Shown here: positions 10,314 through 16,556 of the stretch, in pieces
How the letters are laid out: each line of letters begins with the position of its first letter
Position numbering within the stretch: position 1 is the stretch's first letter
DNA from: Streptomyces sp. NBC_00239
GTDB lineage: Bacteria > Actinomycetota > Actinomycetes > Streptomycetales > Streptomycetaceae
Assembly (NCBI RefSeq): GCF_036194065.1
Contig: NZ_CP108095.1
Location: 2,976,001-3,040,000 of the forward strand
DNA length: 64,000 nucleotides
Reading direction: 5' to 3'
Notes under the pieces: model-generated
What the model was told of the DNA's origin: nothing
Database searches by the model: none
What the model saw: only the letters and a program-made list of their open reading frames with translations
Position numbers and translations under genes: made by a program

Positions 10314-11348
10314 CTACCGGGTGCGCCGGGTCACGAACTCCGCCAGTGCCAGCAGCCCGTCGGCGGCCGCCGGGTCCGGTACCGCACGGGACAGCTGCTG
10401 CACGGCCCGCCCCATCCGGTCCGCCGCGTGGGCCTGCGCCCAGTCCCGCCCGCCGGCCCGCTCCACCGCGTCCGCCGCCCGCCGTACGTCGTCCCCCGCC
10501 ATGGGGCCCGCGTACAGCCGGGCCAGCTCCTCCCCCGCCGCGGTGCCCGAGGTGAGGGCGGCCACGACCGGGAGGGACTTCTTGCGGGCGGCCAGGTCCG
10601 CGCCCGCGGGCTTGCCGGTGTGCTCCGGGTCGCCCCAGATGCCGATCAGGTCGTCGATGAGCTGGAAGGCCAGCCCCGCCTCCCGCCCGAAGCCGTCGAG
10701 CGCCTCCACCTCCTCGTCGCCGGCTCCGGCGTACAGCGCGCCCAGCGCGCAGGAACACCCCAGCAGCGCCCCGGTCTTGGCCATGGCCATCGCCAGGCAG
10801 GCGTCCAGGGACACCTCGGCCTGCCGCTCGAAGGAGCAGTCCGCCTGCTGTCCGGCGGACAGCTCGATCACGCAGGCCGCGAGCCGGGCCGAGGCCCGGG
10901 CCGAGGCCGGGTGCGGATCCTCGGCGAGGAGCCGCAGGGCGAGCGCGAGCAGGGTGTCCCCGGCGAGGAGCGCGTCCGGTATCCCGAACACCGTCCACGC
11001 CGTGGGACGGCCGCGGCGCCGCGCGTCCTCGTCGATGATGTCGTCGTGGAGGAGCGTGAAGTTGTGCGCCAGCTCCACGGCCGCCGCGGGCCGTACCGCG
11101 GCCGCGGCCGTACCGCCCAGAGCCGCGGCGGCCGCGAGCACGAGGGCCGGACGGATGGCCTTGCCCGCGTTCCCGGAGGCCGGCCGGCCGTCCGCGTGCT
11201 CCCAGCCGAAGTGGTACATGGACACCCGGCGCAGCGAGCCGGGCAGCCCCTCGACGGCCCGGCGCAGCTCCGGGTTGACCGTTTCTCTTGTCGCGTCGAG
11301 GAGGGCCGCGGCCTCCTGCCCCTCGACGACGGGCGCGCTCAGCTCCAA
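10314..11348 (-). CDS. Polyprenyl diphosphate synthase, encapsulin-linked
   Basis: 344 residues if started at the TTG at 11348, overlapping the shell-protein stop by ten bases; a CTG at 11342 is the other in-frame candidate, and there is no ATG or GTG nearby. The enzyme condenses IPP onto allylic diphosphates. The first Asp-rich motif is HDDIIDED (101-108), the second [13 protein letters not shown] (228-240), with GKAIRPAL (62-69) binding diphosphate. Phe97, five residues before the first motif, is a bulky residue of the kind that limits product length in characterised enzymes, suggesting a short-to-medium chain. Translational overlap with a family 2B encapsulin indicates it is the enclosed cargo. 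Only about 25 residues precede the catalytic fold, so a long disordered loading tail is not apparent. Confidence 0.85.
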
Positions 11349-12748
11349 CGACCGATCTGGACGTTCTCCAGTACGCCCAGCGCGTCCGGGACCAGCACGG
11401 CGGCCGAGAAGTAGGCGGTGACCAGGTACGAGATGATCGCCTGCTCGCTGATGCCCATGAAGCGGACCGACAGGCTCGGTTCCAGCTCGTCGGGGATGCC
11501 CGGCTGGTGGAGGCCGATGACGCCCTGGTTGTCCTCGCCGGCGCGCATGCACAGGATCGACGTGGTGCGGGCGTCGCTGATCGGGATCTTGCTGCACGGG
11601 AAGATCGGCACCCCGCGCCAGGCCGGGATGTGGTGCCCGTCCACCTCGGCGGGCGTCGGGTAGATCCCGCGCTTGTTCATCTCGCGGCCGAAGGCGGCGA
11701 TCGCCTTGGGGTGGGCGAGGAAGAACTTCGAGCCGCGCCGCATGCTGAGGAGCGCGTCCATGTCGTCGGGGGTGGGCGCCCCGTCGTGCGGCTGGATGCG
11801 CTGCGAGTAGTCGGCGTTGTGGAGCAGGCCGAACTCGCGGTTGTTGATCATTTCGTACTCTTGGCGCTCGCGCAGCGCCTCGACCGTGAGCCGCAACTGC
11901 TGCTCGGTCTGGTTCATCGGCTGGTTGTACAGGTCGGCGACGCGGGTGTGCACCCGCAGCACCGTCTGCGCGATGCTGAGCTCGTACTCGCGCGGCCGGG
12001 CGTCGTAGTCCACGAAGGTGCCGGGCAGGACGGCCTCGCCGACGTGGCCGGCGGAGAGGTCGATGGCGGCCTCGCCGTGCTTGTTGGTGCGCTGGGCGGG
12101 CATCGAGCGGACGTGCTCGACGTGCGCGCGCAGCGACTCGACGCGGTCGGCCAGGAGCTGGAAGTCCTGGCGGCTGAGCACCAGCGCAGTGCCGGGGGTG
12201 GTGGCGCGGGCCGTGAACTCCCAGATCGCCTCGTCGTCGACGAGGCTGTCCTCGCCGAAGTACGCGCCGTCCGCGACGGTGCCGAGCACGGCGTCCTCGC
12301 CGTAGGGGCCGGGGCCGACGTGCTCGATGCGGCCGTGGGCGACGAGGTAGACCTCGTCTGCCGGGCTGCCGAAGGACGTCAGCTCCTGGCCCGCTTCGAA
12401 GTCGATCTGCCGGCAGCGCCCGGCGAGCTCCTCGAGGGCCGCCGGGTCGTCGTACGCGCGCAGCAGCGGCAGTTCGCCGAGCTCCGCCGGAATGACCTGG
12501 ACGCGGTCGCCGGTCTTGATGAAGGTGACGCGACCGTCGCCCACCGAGTAACTCAGCCGCCGGTTCACCCGGTACGTACCGCCCTGGACCGAGACCCAGG
12601 GGAGCTGCTTGAGGAGCCACCGGGAGGTGATCTCCTGCATCTGCGGCACGGACTTGGTGGTGGTTGCCAAGTTCCGTGCGGCCGAGGTCGCGAGACTGCG
12701 CTGCGGCAGAGCTTGGGCCTCGGATTCGGAACCTGCCTGGACCGACAT
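11339..12748 (-). CDS. Family 2B encapsulin shell protein with cyclic-nucleotide-binding-like domain (EshA family)
   Basis: 469 residues. Residues about 1-75 form the shell-protein N-arm; about 80-215 are an inserted Crp-like cNMP-binding beta-roll ([16 protein letters not shown] ... [18 protein letters not shown]); the rest is the HK97-type capsid fold typical of EshA proteins ([40 protein letters not shown], the [21 protein letters not shown] loop, [22 protein letters not shown]). EshA-type proteins are the family 2B encapsulins that self-assemble into compartments; in other Streptomyces they enclose 2-methylisoborneol synthase. Here the partner is a prenyl synthase. In the nucleotide-binding loop the Arg that contacts the cAMP phosphate seems replaced (AIWEF). 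Confidence 0.9.
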
Positions 12749-12944
12749 GTGTTTCCCTTTCGATCACTCCATGGATCTGCGGGACGGAAGCCTTCCAGCA
12801 CGGTGCGCGAAGGGGCCATTACACAAACGAGTGGGACTACTTCGCACAGGCGTGGGCACGTTCTGGAGTTCAGCTACACCGCACGGCGGACCGCCAGTTC
12901 CGGCCACTTCGGGAGGGCCCCTCCCGCACCCCCGTCGGCGCTTT

Positions 12945-12982: not shown

Positions 12983-13459
12983 ATGCGCCTGACCCGATTC
13001 ACCGACCTCGCCCTGCGCGTGCTGATGCGCCTGGCGGTCGACGACGGCGACCTCCCCACCACCCGGGACGTGGCCGCGACCATGCAGGTCCCGTACACGC
13101 ACACCGCCAAGGTGGTCGCCCGGCTGCAGCACCTCGGGCTGGTCGAGGCGCGGCGCGGCCGCGGCGGCGGGCTCGCCCTCACCGCCGCCGGCCGCGCCGC
13201 GTCGGTCGGAGGTGTCGTGCGCGAGCTGGAGGGCGCGGACGACGTGGTGGACTGCGAGGGCTCCACCCCCTGTCCGCTGCGCTCGGCCTGCGTGCTGCGC
13301 GGGGCGCTGCGCAGGGCCCAGGAGGCCTTCTTCGCCGCCCTGGACCCGCTGACCGTGGACTCCCTGGTGGCGGCACCCACCGGCCCGCTCCTGCTCGGCA
13401 TCACGGGCGGCCCCGCGGGCGCCTCCGGGGCGCGGTCGGCGGAACGGCCCGGCGCCTAA
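12983..13459 (+). CDS. nsrR: Nitric-oxide-sensing Rrf2-family repressor NsrR
   Basis: 158 residues from ATG 12983 (MRLTRFTDLALRVLM); an ATG 24 bases upstream lies inside the operator palindrome and is unlikely. An Rrf2 winged helix is followed by the cluster-binding loop with Cys91, Cys97 and Cys103 spaced C-x5-C-x5-C, and Asp8 is present; in characterised Streptomyces NsrR these three cysteines plus Asp8 hold a [4Fe-4S] cluster that NO destroys. It sits immediately upstream of the flavohaemoglobin gene, its expected target. The C-terminus is a short Gly/Ala-rich tail. Confidence 0.93.
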   Translation: MRLTRFTDLALRVLMRLAVDDGDLPTTRDVAATMQVPYTHTAKVVARLQHLGLVEARRGRGGGLALTAAGRAASVGGVVRELEGADDVVDCEGSTPCPLRSACVLRGALRRAQEAFFAALDPLTVDSLVAAPTGPLLLGITGGPAGASGARSAERPGA

Positions 13460-13599: not shown

Positions 13600-14790
13600 A
13601 TGCTGTCCGAGAAGTCCGCCGAGACCGTCCGCGCCACCCTGCCCGCCGTCGGCGCGGCCATCGGCGACATCACCGAGCTGTTCTACGCGAAGCTGTTCGC
13701 CGCCCACCCCGCGCTGCTGCGCGACCTGTTCAACCGCGGCAACCAGGCCGCCGGCCTCCAGAAGCAGGCCCTGGCCGGCTCCATCGCCGCCTTCGCGACC
13801 CACCTGGTCGCCCACCCGGACAGCCGCCCGGACGTGATGCTCGGCCGCATCGCCCACAAGCACGCCTCCCTCGGGGTCACCCGCGAGCAGTACCCGGTGG
13901 TCCACCGGCACCTCTTCGAGGCCATCGCGGAGGTCCTCGGCGACGCGGTCACCCCCGAGGTGGCCGCGGCCTGGGACGAGGTCTACTGGCTGATGGCCAA
14001 CGCCCTGATCGCCATCGAGGAGCGCCTGTACGCGGCGCGGCAGGTGGCGGCCGGCGACGTGTGGCGCGACTGGCGGGTGGCCGCCCGCACCGAGGAGACC
14101 GCCGACTGCGCCACCTTCCGGCTGGTCCCCGCCGACGGCGCGCCCGCCCCGGCGTTCCGGCCCGGCCAGTACGTCTCCGTCCAGGTGGAGCTCCCCGACG
14201 GCGCCCGCCAGATCCGCCAGTACAGCCTCACCTGCGCGCCCGGCGCGTCGGACCGCTCGCTCACCGTCAAACGGGTGCACGGCGGCCCCGGCCCGGACGG
14301 CGAGGTCTCCCGCCACCTGCACGCGCACGTCCGCCCCGGCGACACCCTGCGGGTCTCCGCCCCGTACGGCGACCTGGTCCTGGCGGGCGGCGACGCGCCC
14401 GTGCTGCTCGCCTCCGCCGGCATCGGCTGCACGCCGATGGTCTCGATGCTGGAGCACCTGGCCGACACCGGCTTCGGCGCGTCGGTCACGGTCGTGCACG
14501 CCGACCGCTCGCCCGCCGACCACGCGCTCGCCACCGACCACCGCGGCCTGGCCGGCAAGCTGGCCGACGGCCGGACGTACTTCTGGTACGAGGACGGGGC
14601 CGCGGACCCGGACCTCGCCGGGCGGGTGGACCTGACGGCCGTCCCGGTGCCCGCCGGCACCCGCGCCTACCTCTGCGGCCCGCTCCCCTTCATGCGCGCC
14701 GTACGCGGGCAGCTCCTCGCCAAGGGCGTCCCGGCGGCCGACATCCACTACGAGGTCTTCGGCCCGGACCTCTGGCTCGCGAGCGCCTGA
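13600..14790 (+). CDS. hmp: Flavohaemoglobin, nitric oxide dioxygenase
   Basis: 396 residues, the standard Hmp length. Globin domain (1-145) with Tyr29 at the distal B10 position and the proximal haem His88 in IAHKHASLG; FAD domain with RQYS at 206-209; NAD domain with LLASAGIGCTPMVSML and the C-terminal YLCGPLPFMRAV and EVFGPDLW. It converts NO to nitrate with O2 and NAD(P)H in the cytosol. A TTGAGGAG ribosome-binding site precedes the ATG. It lies 140 bases downstream of nsrR with its own NsrR-like palindrome, so it is probably induced by NO. Confidence 0.96.
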   Translation: MLSEKSAETVRATLPAVGAAIGDITELFYAKLFAAHPALLRDLFNRGNQAAGLQKQALAGSIAAFATHLVAHPDSRPDVMLGRIAHKHASLGVTREQYPVVHRHLFEAIAEVLGDAVTPEVAAAWDEVYWLMANALIAIEERLYAARQVAAGDVWRDWRVAARTEETADCATFRLVPADGAPAPAFRPGQYVSVQVELPDGARQIRQYSLTCAPGASDRSLTVKRVHGGPGPDGEVSRHLHAHVRPGDTLRVSAPYGDLVLAGGDAPVLLASAGIGCTPMVSMLEHLADTGFGASVTVVHADRSPADHALATDHRGLAGKLADGRTYFWYEDGAADPDLAGRVDLTAVPVPAGTRAYLCGPLPFMRAVRGQLLAKGVPAADIHYEVFGPDLWLASA

Positions 14791-15590: not shown

Positions 15591-16556
15591 GTGACCACCG
15601 CTCCCCCCGCCGGCCCGGGCCGCCCCGGCCCCGGCCGTCCGGGTCCCGATCCGCTCGCCGCGCTCGGGGCCCGCCTCCCCTCGCCCGTGGCCGAGGTGCA
15701 CGACGACCGGTTCGCCCGGCACGGCGTACGGCTGCTGCTCAAGCGGGACGACCTCGTGCACCCGGAGCTCCCGGGCAACAAGTGGCGCAAGCTCGGCCCG
15801 AACCTGCGGGCGGCCGCGGCGGCCGGGCGGCGGGAGCTGGTGACCTTCGGCGGGGCGTACTCCAACCACCTGCGGGCCACCGCGGCGGCCGGCCGGCTGC
15901 TCGGACTGTCGACCGTGGGCATCGTCCGCGGCGACGAGCTGGCCGCGGTCCCGCTCAACCCGTCCCTGGCCCGGTGCGCGGCCGACGGCATGCGGCTGCA
16001 CTTCGCGGCGCGTTCCGCTTACCGGCGCAAGGCCGAGCCGGCCGGGCTGGCCGAGTTGCTGCGGGCGGCCGGGGCCGCGGACGCGTACGTGGTCCCGGAG
16101 GGCGGCAGCAACGCCCTGGCGGTACGCGGCTGCGCCGAGCTGGGCCGGGAGCTGCGGGGGCTGGCCGACGTGGTGGCGCTGGCCTGCGGCACCGGCGGCA
16201 CCCTGGCGGGGCTGGCCGCGGGCCTGGGCCCGGGCGCCCGGACCCTCGGCGTGCCGGTGCTCAAAGGCGGCTTCCTGGCGGCGGAGATACGTTCCCTCCA
16301 ACAGGCGGCCTTCGGCGGCCCGGCCGGCGACTGGGCCCTGGAGGAACGGTTCCACTTCGGCGGCTTCGCCCGGGTCCCGGACGAACTGGATGCCTTCGCC
16401 GCGGACTTCGAGGACCGCCACGGACTCCCGGTGGAACGGCTGTACGTCGCGAAGCTCCTGTACGCGCTGAGCGCGTGCGCGGCCGAGGGCGCGTTCCCCT
16501 CCGGCACCACGATCGCCGCAGTGATCACCGGCCCCCCACTCGCCCCCACCCCCTGA
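15591..16556 (+). CDS. ACC deaminase/D-cysteine desulfhydrase-family PLP enzyme
   Basis: 321 residues starting at GTG 15591. The tryptophan-synthase-beta fold type II PLP site is clear: KRDDLVHPELPGNKWRKL around 50-67 with the Schiff-base Lys, then TFGGAYSNHLRATAAAG and VALACGTGGTLAGLAAGL, the phosphate-binding loop. Members either open 1-aminocyclopropane-1-carboxylate to 2-oxobutyrate and ammonia or remove H2S from D-cysteine; the sequence does not decide which. It lies 31 bases after the amidase on the same strand, perhaps cotranscribed, and converges on the antiporter gene across a repeat cluster. Confidence 0.85.
   Translation: MTTAPPAGPGRPGPGRPGPDPLAALGARLPSPVAEVHDDRFARHGVRLLLKRDDLVHPELPGNKWRKLGPNLRAAAAAGRRELVTFGGAYSNHLRATAAAGRLLGLSTVGIVRGDELAAVPLNPSLARCAADGMRLHFAARSAYRRKAEPAGLAELLRAAGAADAYVVPEGGSNALAVRGCAELGRELRGLADVVALACGTGGTLAGLAAGLGPGARTLGVPVLKGGFLAAEIRSLQQAAFGGPAGDWALEERFHFGGFARVPDELDAFAADFEDRHGLPVERLYVAKLLYALSACAAEGAFPSGTTIAAVITGPPLAPTP

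Follow-up and report, generated by a model that had tools for sequence, protein, structure and literature searches.

At this locus of Streptomyces sp. NBC_00239 two genes, one for an encapsulin shell protein and one for a prenyl diphosphate synthase, lie one behind the other on the minus strand and overlap by 4 or 10 nt, depending on the start codon chosen for the synthase (Table 1). The sequence-only reading of the analysed stretch of DNA (the window, 64,000 nucleotides) had placed both genes in this way, and their positions, strand and overlap were confirmed from the sequence.

Table 1. Coordinates of the genes, domains, motifs and putative signals at the locus.
Feature	Position in the window	Strand	Remarks
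Prenyl diphosphate synthase, probable cargo	10314-11348	-	344 aa from TTG 11348; 343 codons from CTG 11342
Second aspartate-rich motif, DDLIG	10641-10655	-	residues 232-236
First aspartate-rich motif, DDIID	11031-11045	-	residues 102-106 of 344; F at -5, T at -4
Shell 3′ / synthase 5′ overlap	11339-11348	-	TTG at -10 (10 nt) or CTG at -4 (CTGA, 4 nt)
Family 2B encapsulin shell protein	11339-12748	-	469 aa; ATG start, TGA stop at 11341-11339; NF041163
HK97/SrpI-like shell domain	11348-12100	-	shell residues 217-467; PF19307, 462 bits
Inserted cNMP-binding-like domain	12149-12403	-	shell residues 116-200; PF00027, 54.5 bits
Conserved promoter-like element TCCCACTCGTTTGTGTAAT	12818-12836	-	putative; 69 nt upstream of shell start

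The shell protein had been described as an EshA-type family 2B encapsulin with an inserted cNMP-binding-like domain, and the profile searches agree with this description: the protein scores 766.8 bits against NCBIfam encap_f2b (NF041163, cut-off 400), and both the insert and the shell fold are matched by their Pfam models (Table 1). Comparison with characterised family 2B shells, which had been proposed as a check, gave 9bhu as the nearest solved sequence (phmmer, 660 bits, with an alignment spanning residues 1-468); in the accessible text of PMC12407261 this entry, 9BHU, is the family 2B encapsulin of S. griseus. By analogy with this solved relative, the window shell would form a closed icosahedral cage. 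It was the only SrpI-like match in a genome-wide search with PF19307.

Control of the compartment by a nucleotide-like ligand had also been suggested. We take the canonical phosphate-binding cassette motif to carry an Arg, and when the inserted domain was aligned by eye with this motif, the corresponding position was occupied by Trp in the window shell. Because of this replacement, and because the accessible part of PMC12407261, citing other work, states that the inserted cNMP-like domain of family 2B shells binds no cyclic nucleotide, control by cyclic nucleotides appears unlikely. On the plus strand, antisense to the shell gene, positions 12213-12706 match Rfam RF02735 (the Saccharopolyspora antisense sRNA Sernc350) with 126 bits. 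The match points to an antisense transcript over the shell gene in another genus, and it is probably an echo of the coding conservation of the shell gene.

The second gene product scores 191.6 bits against Pfam polyprenyl_synt and 485.4 bits against NCBIfam NF041169 (cut-off 450), whose name reads "family 2 encapsulin nanocompartment cargo protein polyprenyl transferase". In a 32-row alignment D102, D103 and D106 of the first aspartate-rich motif and D232, D233 and G236 of the second were invariant, and the AlphaFold2 model from the same alignment had a confident fold, with a mean pLDDT of 93.1. Phenylalanine at -5 of the first motif presumably specifies a GGPP product, by a rule we assume here, and from this residue the window synthase is predicted to be probably of the GGPP type (C20). 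A protein search with the synthase scored 8000 candidates, 4519 of which passed E 1e-60; among the best 120 of these 4519, all named proteins bear the NF041169 cargo name, partly beside an older one.

The genome holds three further PF00348 genes, and a free paralogue in it (L112) is 44% identical to the window synthase. Free GGPP-synthase-like enzymes of this kind (IdsB-like; PDB 3nf2, to which the window synthase scores 251 bits) belong to the same family and differ in having no adjoining shell. The two groups are also separated by 45 listed positions that are fixed in shell-linked synthases (at least 85% of 76) and rare in free ones (at most 25% of 19). In two of the 76 compared shell-linked synthases, L018 and L058, the first aspartate motif is damaged (DGVLD and DEVTD), so that catalysis has possibly been lost there.

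The eight neighbouring genes scanned with Pfam encode a LysR regulator, an M7 protease, RibD-like and GNAT proteins, an Rrf2 regulator, a flavohaemoprotein-like protein, an amidase and a Na/H exchanger. No terpene or precursor-pathway gene was found among these eight, as had been noted earlier for terpene cyclases, methyltransferases and other pathway genes. Upstream of the shell and divergent from it lie the Rrf2-family regulator (12983-13459), NsrR-like but under the NsrR cut-off, and the flavohaemoprotein-like gene (13600-14790), also under the cut-off of its model. A functional link of the locus to this pair was rejected, as the pair stands near the shell in only 15 of 80 loci. The pattern TT[TC][GA]NGTAAT, drawn up post hoc, lies in the 220 nt preceding 82 of the 91 shell genes with a rule-placed start, and a search of the minus strand between 10100 and 13100 found neither a sigma-70-type promoter nor a terminator.

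How firmly are the two genes associated along the genus? Among the matches listed, NF041169 was above its cut-off in 114 of 150 Streptomyces genomes, with one match in each. In 97 of them the synthase was downstream of a listed shell on the same strand, the two model matches being 39-690 nt apart, and the window has the smallest gap of these 97 listed pairs. When the remaining 17 genomes were rechecked with PF19307, 15 more were paired; one match (G112) was at a contig end, and in G076 the shell was on another contig. A family 2B shell thus lies directly upstream, on the same strand, in 112 of 114 enzyme-positive genomes, and this pairing is far beyond chance. Homologues below the NF041169 cut-off were near a shell in none of 36 cases, among the matches listed for both genes.

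Seen from the shell side, the synthase was present in 76 of the 80 closest shell loci of named genomes and missing from L021, L023, L037 (on a short contig) and L081. The last of these is a shell of the same clade whose surroundings are conserved and behind which no synthase stands. The upstream neighbour at 15591-16556, which we take to encode an ACC-deaminase-like protein, was kept in 75 of these 80 loci. Since both the pairing and this neighbour are retained across the closest shell loci, the locus is old and has a fixed chromosomal place across Streptomyces.

By its sequence the window locus is a known type of encapsulin, the family 2B operon with a prenyl synthase. Polyprenyl diphosphate synthase is the most frequent neighbour of family 2b shells in the accessible text of an eLife 2021 paper (PMC8049743), and the corresponding text of a Nat Commun 2021 paper (Andreas & Giessen 2021, PMC8346489) counts 900 prenyl-transferase operons, 888 of them in Actinobacteria, beside 904 terpene-cyclase operons. 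The idea that a prenyl synthase partner would be a distinct use of the compartment was consequently given up: NF041169 models such cargo and both papers, as far as their accessible text goes, report it as common. The window shares with the published prenyl-transferase systems the shell family, the cNMP-like insert, the enzyme family and the gene adjacency (PMC8346489, accessible part); these systems are mostly actinobacterial, and the two window genes pass both curated cut-offs (NF041163 and NF041169). It differs from that description in a tail of about 8 residues where 50-100 are given, in the loss of the spacer, in the missing ATG or GTG start and in scanned neighbours that hold no precursor-pathway genes.

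Two other family 2B systems can be set beside it. The shell of the EshA/2-MIB encapsulin (eshA-mibA-mibB; 9BHU) aligns over its full length with the window shell, and the 2-MIB-type shells form the sister clade, but that system pairs its shell with a methyltransferase and with a terpene cyclase that carries GPSGxGT and has a long N-terminal region; neither enzyme accompanies the window shell. A Nat Commun 2024 paper is said to treat this 2-MIB encapsulin. The two-component shells of S. lydicus (9BIX, 9BJE; accessible text of PMC12407261) belong to the same shell family and use two shell proteins, whereas the window genome has one.

The earlier proposal of a tightly coupled prenyl diphosphate synthase as the likely cargo therefore stands, and we find it rather probable that the locus is a single-shell family 2B operon whose synthase is enclosed in the cage, enclosure being what we infer from the curated models for both genes, the 112/114 linkage, the invariant aspartates and the confident fold. 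Several observations speak against it: the published domain of 50-100 residues is missing, four of 80 clade shells stand without the enzyme and two of these have a terpene cyclase instead, one enzyme (G076) lacks an adjoining shell, and two of 76 synthases carry the damaged first motif. Our literature search, mostly of papers outside subscription, found no report of a prenyl synthase shown inside a family 2B shell and, in the same scope, none of a cargo-loading mechanism or product for prenyl-synthase encapsulins.

The loading of the enzyme is the weak point of this reading, as the sequence-only reading had seen. It had allowed about 25 residues before the catalytic fold; in the AlphaFold2 model there are about 8, with residues 1-8 below pLDDT 50 and the first helix beginning at residue 8, and the window enzyme is without a disordered loading domain. 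In the accessible text of PMC8346489, where the cargo search relied on HMMs, a disordered N-terminal domain of 50-100 residues with no shared motif is described as a consistent trait of the prenyl synthase cargo. We scored tail length in 92 of 96 Streptomyces loci, a non-random set which includes 20 picked loci (the 8 smallest gaps and 12 initially unpaired), with start codons assigned by rule as in all locus comparisons and with L031, L046, L060 and L115 dropped for a misassigned start or frame. Tails had at most 15 residues in 37 loci, 16-30 in 8, 31-49 in 23 and at least 50 in 24. Therefore a long domain cannot be the general basis of loading and, with a 50-residue tail in only 24 of 92 loci, the disordered domain does not define the prenyl-transferase group. 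A further set of 30 loci, read with flanks of about 1.5 kb, included 15 from outside the genus. Four of these 15, from other families of the class (L160, L172, L173, L174), have a shell next to the synthase, and their synthases carry at most 15-20 residues ahead of the same anchor; short tails on shell-linked synthases, which would also fit the cargo reading, are thus seen beyond Streptomyces too. The other 11 showed no shell in these flanks and were not used.

The search for a short signal gave no general candidate. With a looser pattern, a [DE]G[QH]EA-like box was found ahead of the first helix in 80 of the 92 Streptomyces loci, and in fixed alignment columns it occurred in 65 of 76 shell-linked synthases against 1 of 19 free ones. 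As a general docking signal it was rejected, being absent from all four shell-linked loci outside Streptomyces, and it is at most lineage-specific. The terpene-cyclase-like targeting motif G[PL][TIVS][GA] was likewise discarded: it is present in 6 of 96 tails, where shuffled tails average 2.7 and 22 of 500 shuffles reach 6. An ER..IGTQ-like motif, drawn up after reading the tails, occurs in 11 of 96. Neither of these two motifs is general over the 96 tails or present in the window synthase. On the shell side, 96 prenyl-synthase shells differ from 28 other shells at 13 scattered positions; a luminal loop as the cargo-specific contact was rejected, as the two sets showed no clear difference there by eye.

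The missing loading domain, the short tails inside and outside Streptomyces and the failure to find a targeting motif common to all 96 tails speak for a synthase that is not cargo at all. Such an enzyme would be co-expressed with the shell and would remain unenclosed, either in the cytosol or at the outer surface of the cage, passing prenyl diphosphate to or from the shell contents. Against this stand the gene overlap and the pairing seen in 112 of 114 genomes, and also the published cargo annotation, which in the accessible text of PMC8346489 is itself inferred from linkage; we regard this arrangement as unlikely, if worth keeping in mind.

The junction of the two genes bears on how the synthase is made. 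Beyond the overlap, its next in-frame ATG, GTG or TTG codon is a GTG at 11225, inside the fold, and the CTG, read as Met, is the first codon of the database proteins from the window genome (P0002, 342 aa) and from S. bambusae (P0003, 343 aa). The spacer has shrunk until the synthase frame meets the shell stop in 12 of 96 Streptomyces loci, the window included; these loci are close kin and therefore represent few independent events. Although their spacers have several lengths, all 12 carry the synthase in frame -1 to the shell with no stop in between, whereas longer-gap relatives have it in all three frames. In three of the 12 (L002, L010, L015) CTG is the only start, as ATG, GTG and TTG are all missing around the junction. 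The fixed -1 frame is no more than suggestive of a synthase start at or before the shell stop; the synthase would then be translated by termination and restart at the overlap.

Could the enzyme instead be carried into the cage as part of the shell protein? A rare fusion of shell and synthase, made by -1 ribosomal frameshifting at the overlap, would load the enzyme without a tail, and both the uninterrupted -1 frame in 12 of 12 short-gap loci and the three loci without a usual start codon fit with it. However, the CTG at -4 suffices for a restart and is chosen by the database gene calls, GC-rich frames stay open by chance, the longer-gap relatives occupy all three frames, and no slippery heptamer was found at the junction by eye. 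We consider such a fusion very improbable.

A longer N-terminus of the synthase, overprinted in the other frame of the shell gene, might also have served as the loading domain. Read upstream, the frame continues open within the shell gene, where 11 of the 12 short-gap loci carry a GTG at -214 or -259. In the stretch 100-50 codons before the end of the shell gene, the overlap group shows less synonymous variation than the control (0.166 against 0.215). In the last 50 codons, however, through which the extension would run as well, it is not lowered (0.116, 0.271 and 0.199 against 0.103, 0.247 and 0.114, with 13 ATG-start close relatives compared). A Shine-Dalgarno match at the upstream GTGs was found in 0 of 12 loci and, beyond this group, in L115; relatives that start with ATG carry the same GTG as well. 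The extension was rejected on the variation in the last 50 codons, which the dip at 100-50 codons does not rescue, and its probability is close to nil.

A strong GC-rich hairpin was seen directly after the shell stop in five of the eight longer-gap loci that were folded (L029, L031, L040, L041, L060); it was not found after the shell stop in the window. The ratio of synthase to shell in the window clade may therefore differ from that of its hairpin-bearing relatives.

The same genome holds a second candidate for the shell. A 2-methylisoborneol-synthase-like cyclase is encoded at C1:7915738-7917057, about 4.9 Mb from the window shell. With its methyltransferase it forms the block G000:C1:7914823-7917057 (L153:6824-9058), in which both frames are open. 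The cyclase and the methyltransferase are 75% and 88% identical to the shell-linked pair of G042, and no shell gene was found near the cyclase within the 16 kb read. Its N-terminal part retains RGPSGPGT, a targeting-like motif. In 32 of 101 genomes searched there is a close 2-MIB synthase, with 74% identity or more: 27 are shell-adjacent (in G041 as a fragment only), 3 are shell-less, and 2 stand at or near contig ends (G072, G099). The shell-less ones (the window genome, G086 and G096, with L185 and L186 as the loci of the two further genomes) all keep GPSGxGT, and G086 and G096 retain other family 2B shells.

In a midpoint-rooted tree of 69 of the 128 shells, the prenyl-synthase shells and L021, L023, L037 and L081 fell with full support into a single clade, next to that of the 2-MIB-type shells; L021 and L023 are nested inside the former. 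Upstream of these two shells (L021:5325-9413 and L023:1291-5190) lies a two-domain geosmin-synthase-like cyclase with GPTGLGTSAAR (that of L023 being 95% identical), and the prenyl synthase is missing. Because shells nested in the prenyl-synthase clade adjoin a cyclase instead, cargo switching on this type of shell seems to have happened.

With one shell in the genome and a shell-less 2-MIB synthase that bears a targeting-like motif, the shell might therefore serve in trans, taking up the distant cyclase besides the prenyl synthase or in its place. The open cyclase and methyltransferase genes, the motif kept in all three shell-less cases, the other family 2B shells of G086 and G096 and the nested L021 and L023 shells would agree with this. 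On the other side, the motif of the window genome shows P at a position where L or V stands in the other legible motifs, perhaps through decay; shell-less synthases make up only 3 of 30 decidable cases and may be recent losses; and 2-MIB synthesis does not require EshA according to the accessible text of PMC6428758, which speaks against the need for a shell there. We hold such sharing to be quite unlikely. A fuller version of it, to which we give as little weight, would have prenyl-type shells load without an N-terminal domain, the single shell recognise the GPSGxGT region of the distant cyclase in trans, and the synthase supply the precursor either inside, held by body contacts, or outside.

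For the enclosed synthase, which we prefer, the sequence of events may be pictured as follows. The shell would assemble into a closed cage like 9BHU, and ribosomes finishing the shell gene would restart at the overlap and produce the synthase. During assembly the enzyme would be trapped, held by its very short tail or by contacts of its folded body. The substrates IPP and an allylic diphosphate could pass in through the pores, and the prenyl product, formed inside, would go to a user whose gene lies elsewhere.

Prenyl-synthase encapsulins rank among the commonest family 2B systems. The window locus is a useful test case for them, since one genome combines a near-tail-less synthase with a lone shell gene and with a 2-MIB synthase that bears a targeting-like motif but has no shell beside it. 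Worth following are the nearly absent tail, the collapsed junction and the possibility that the shell is shared.
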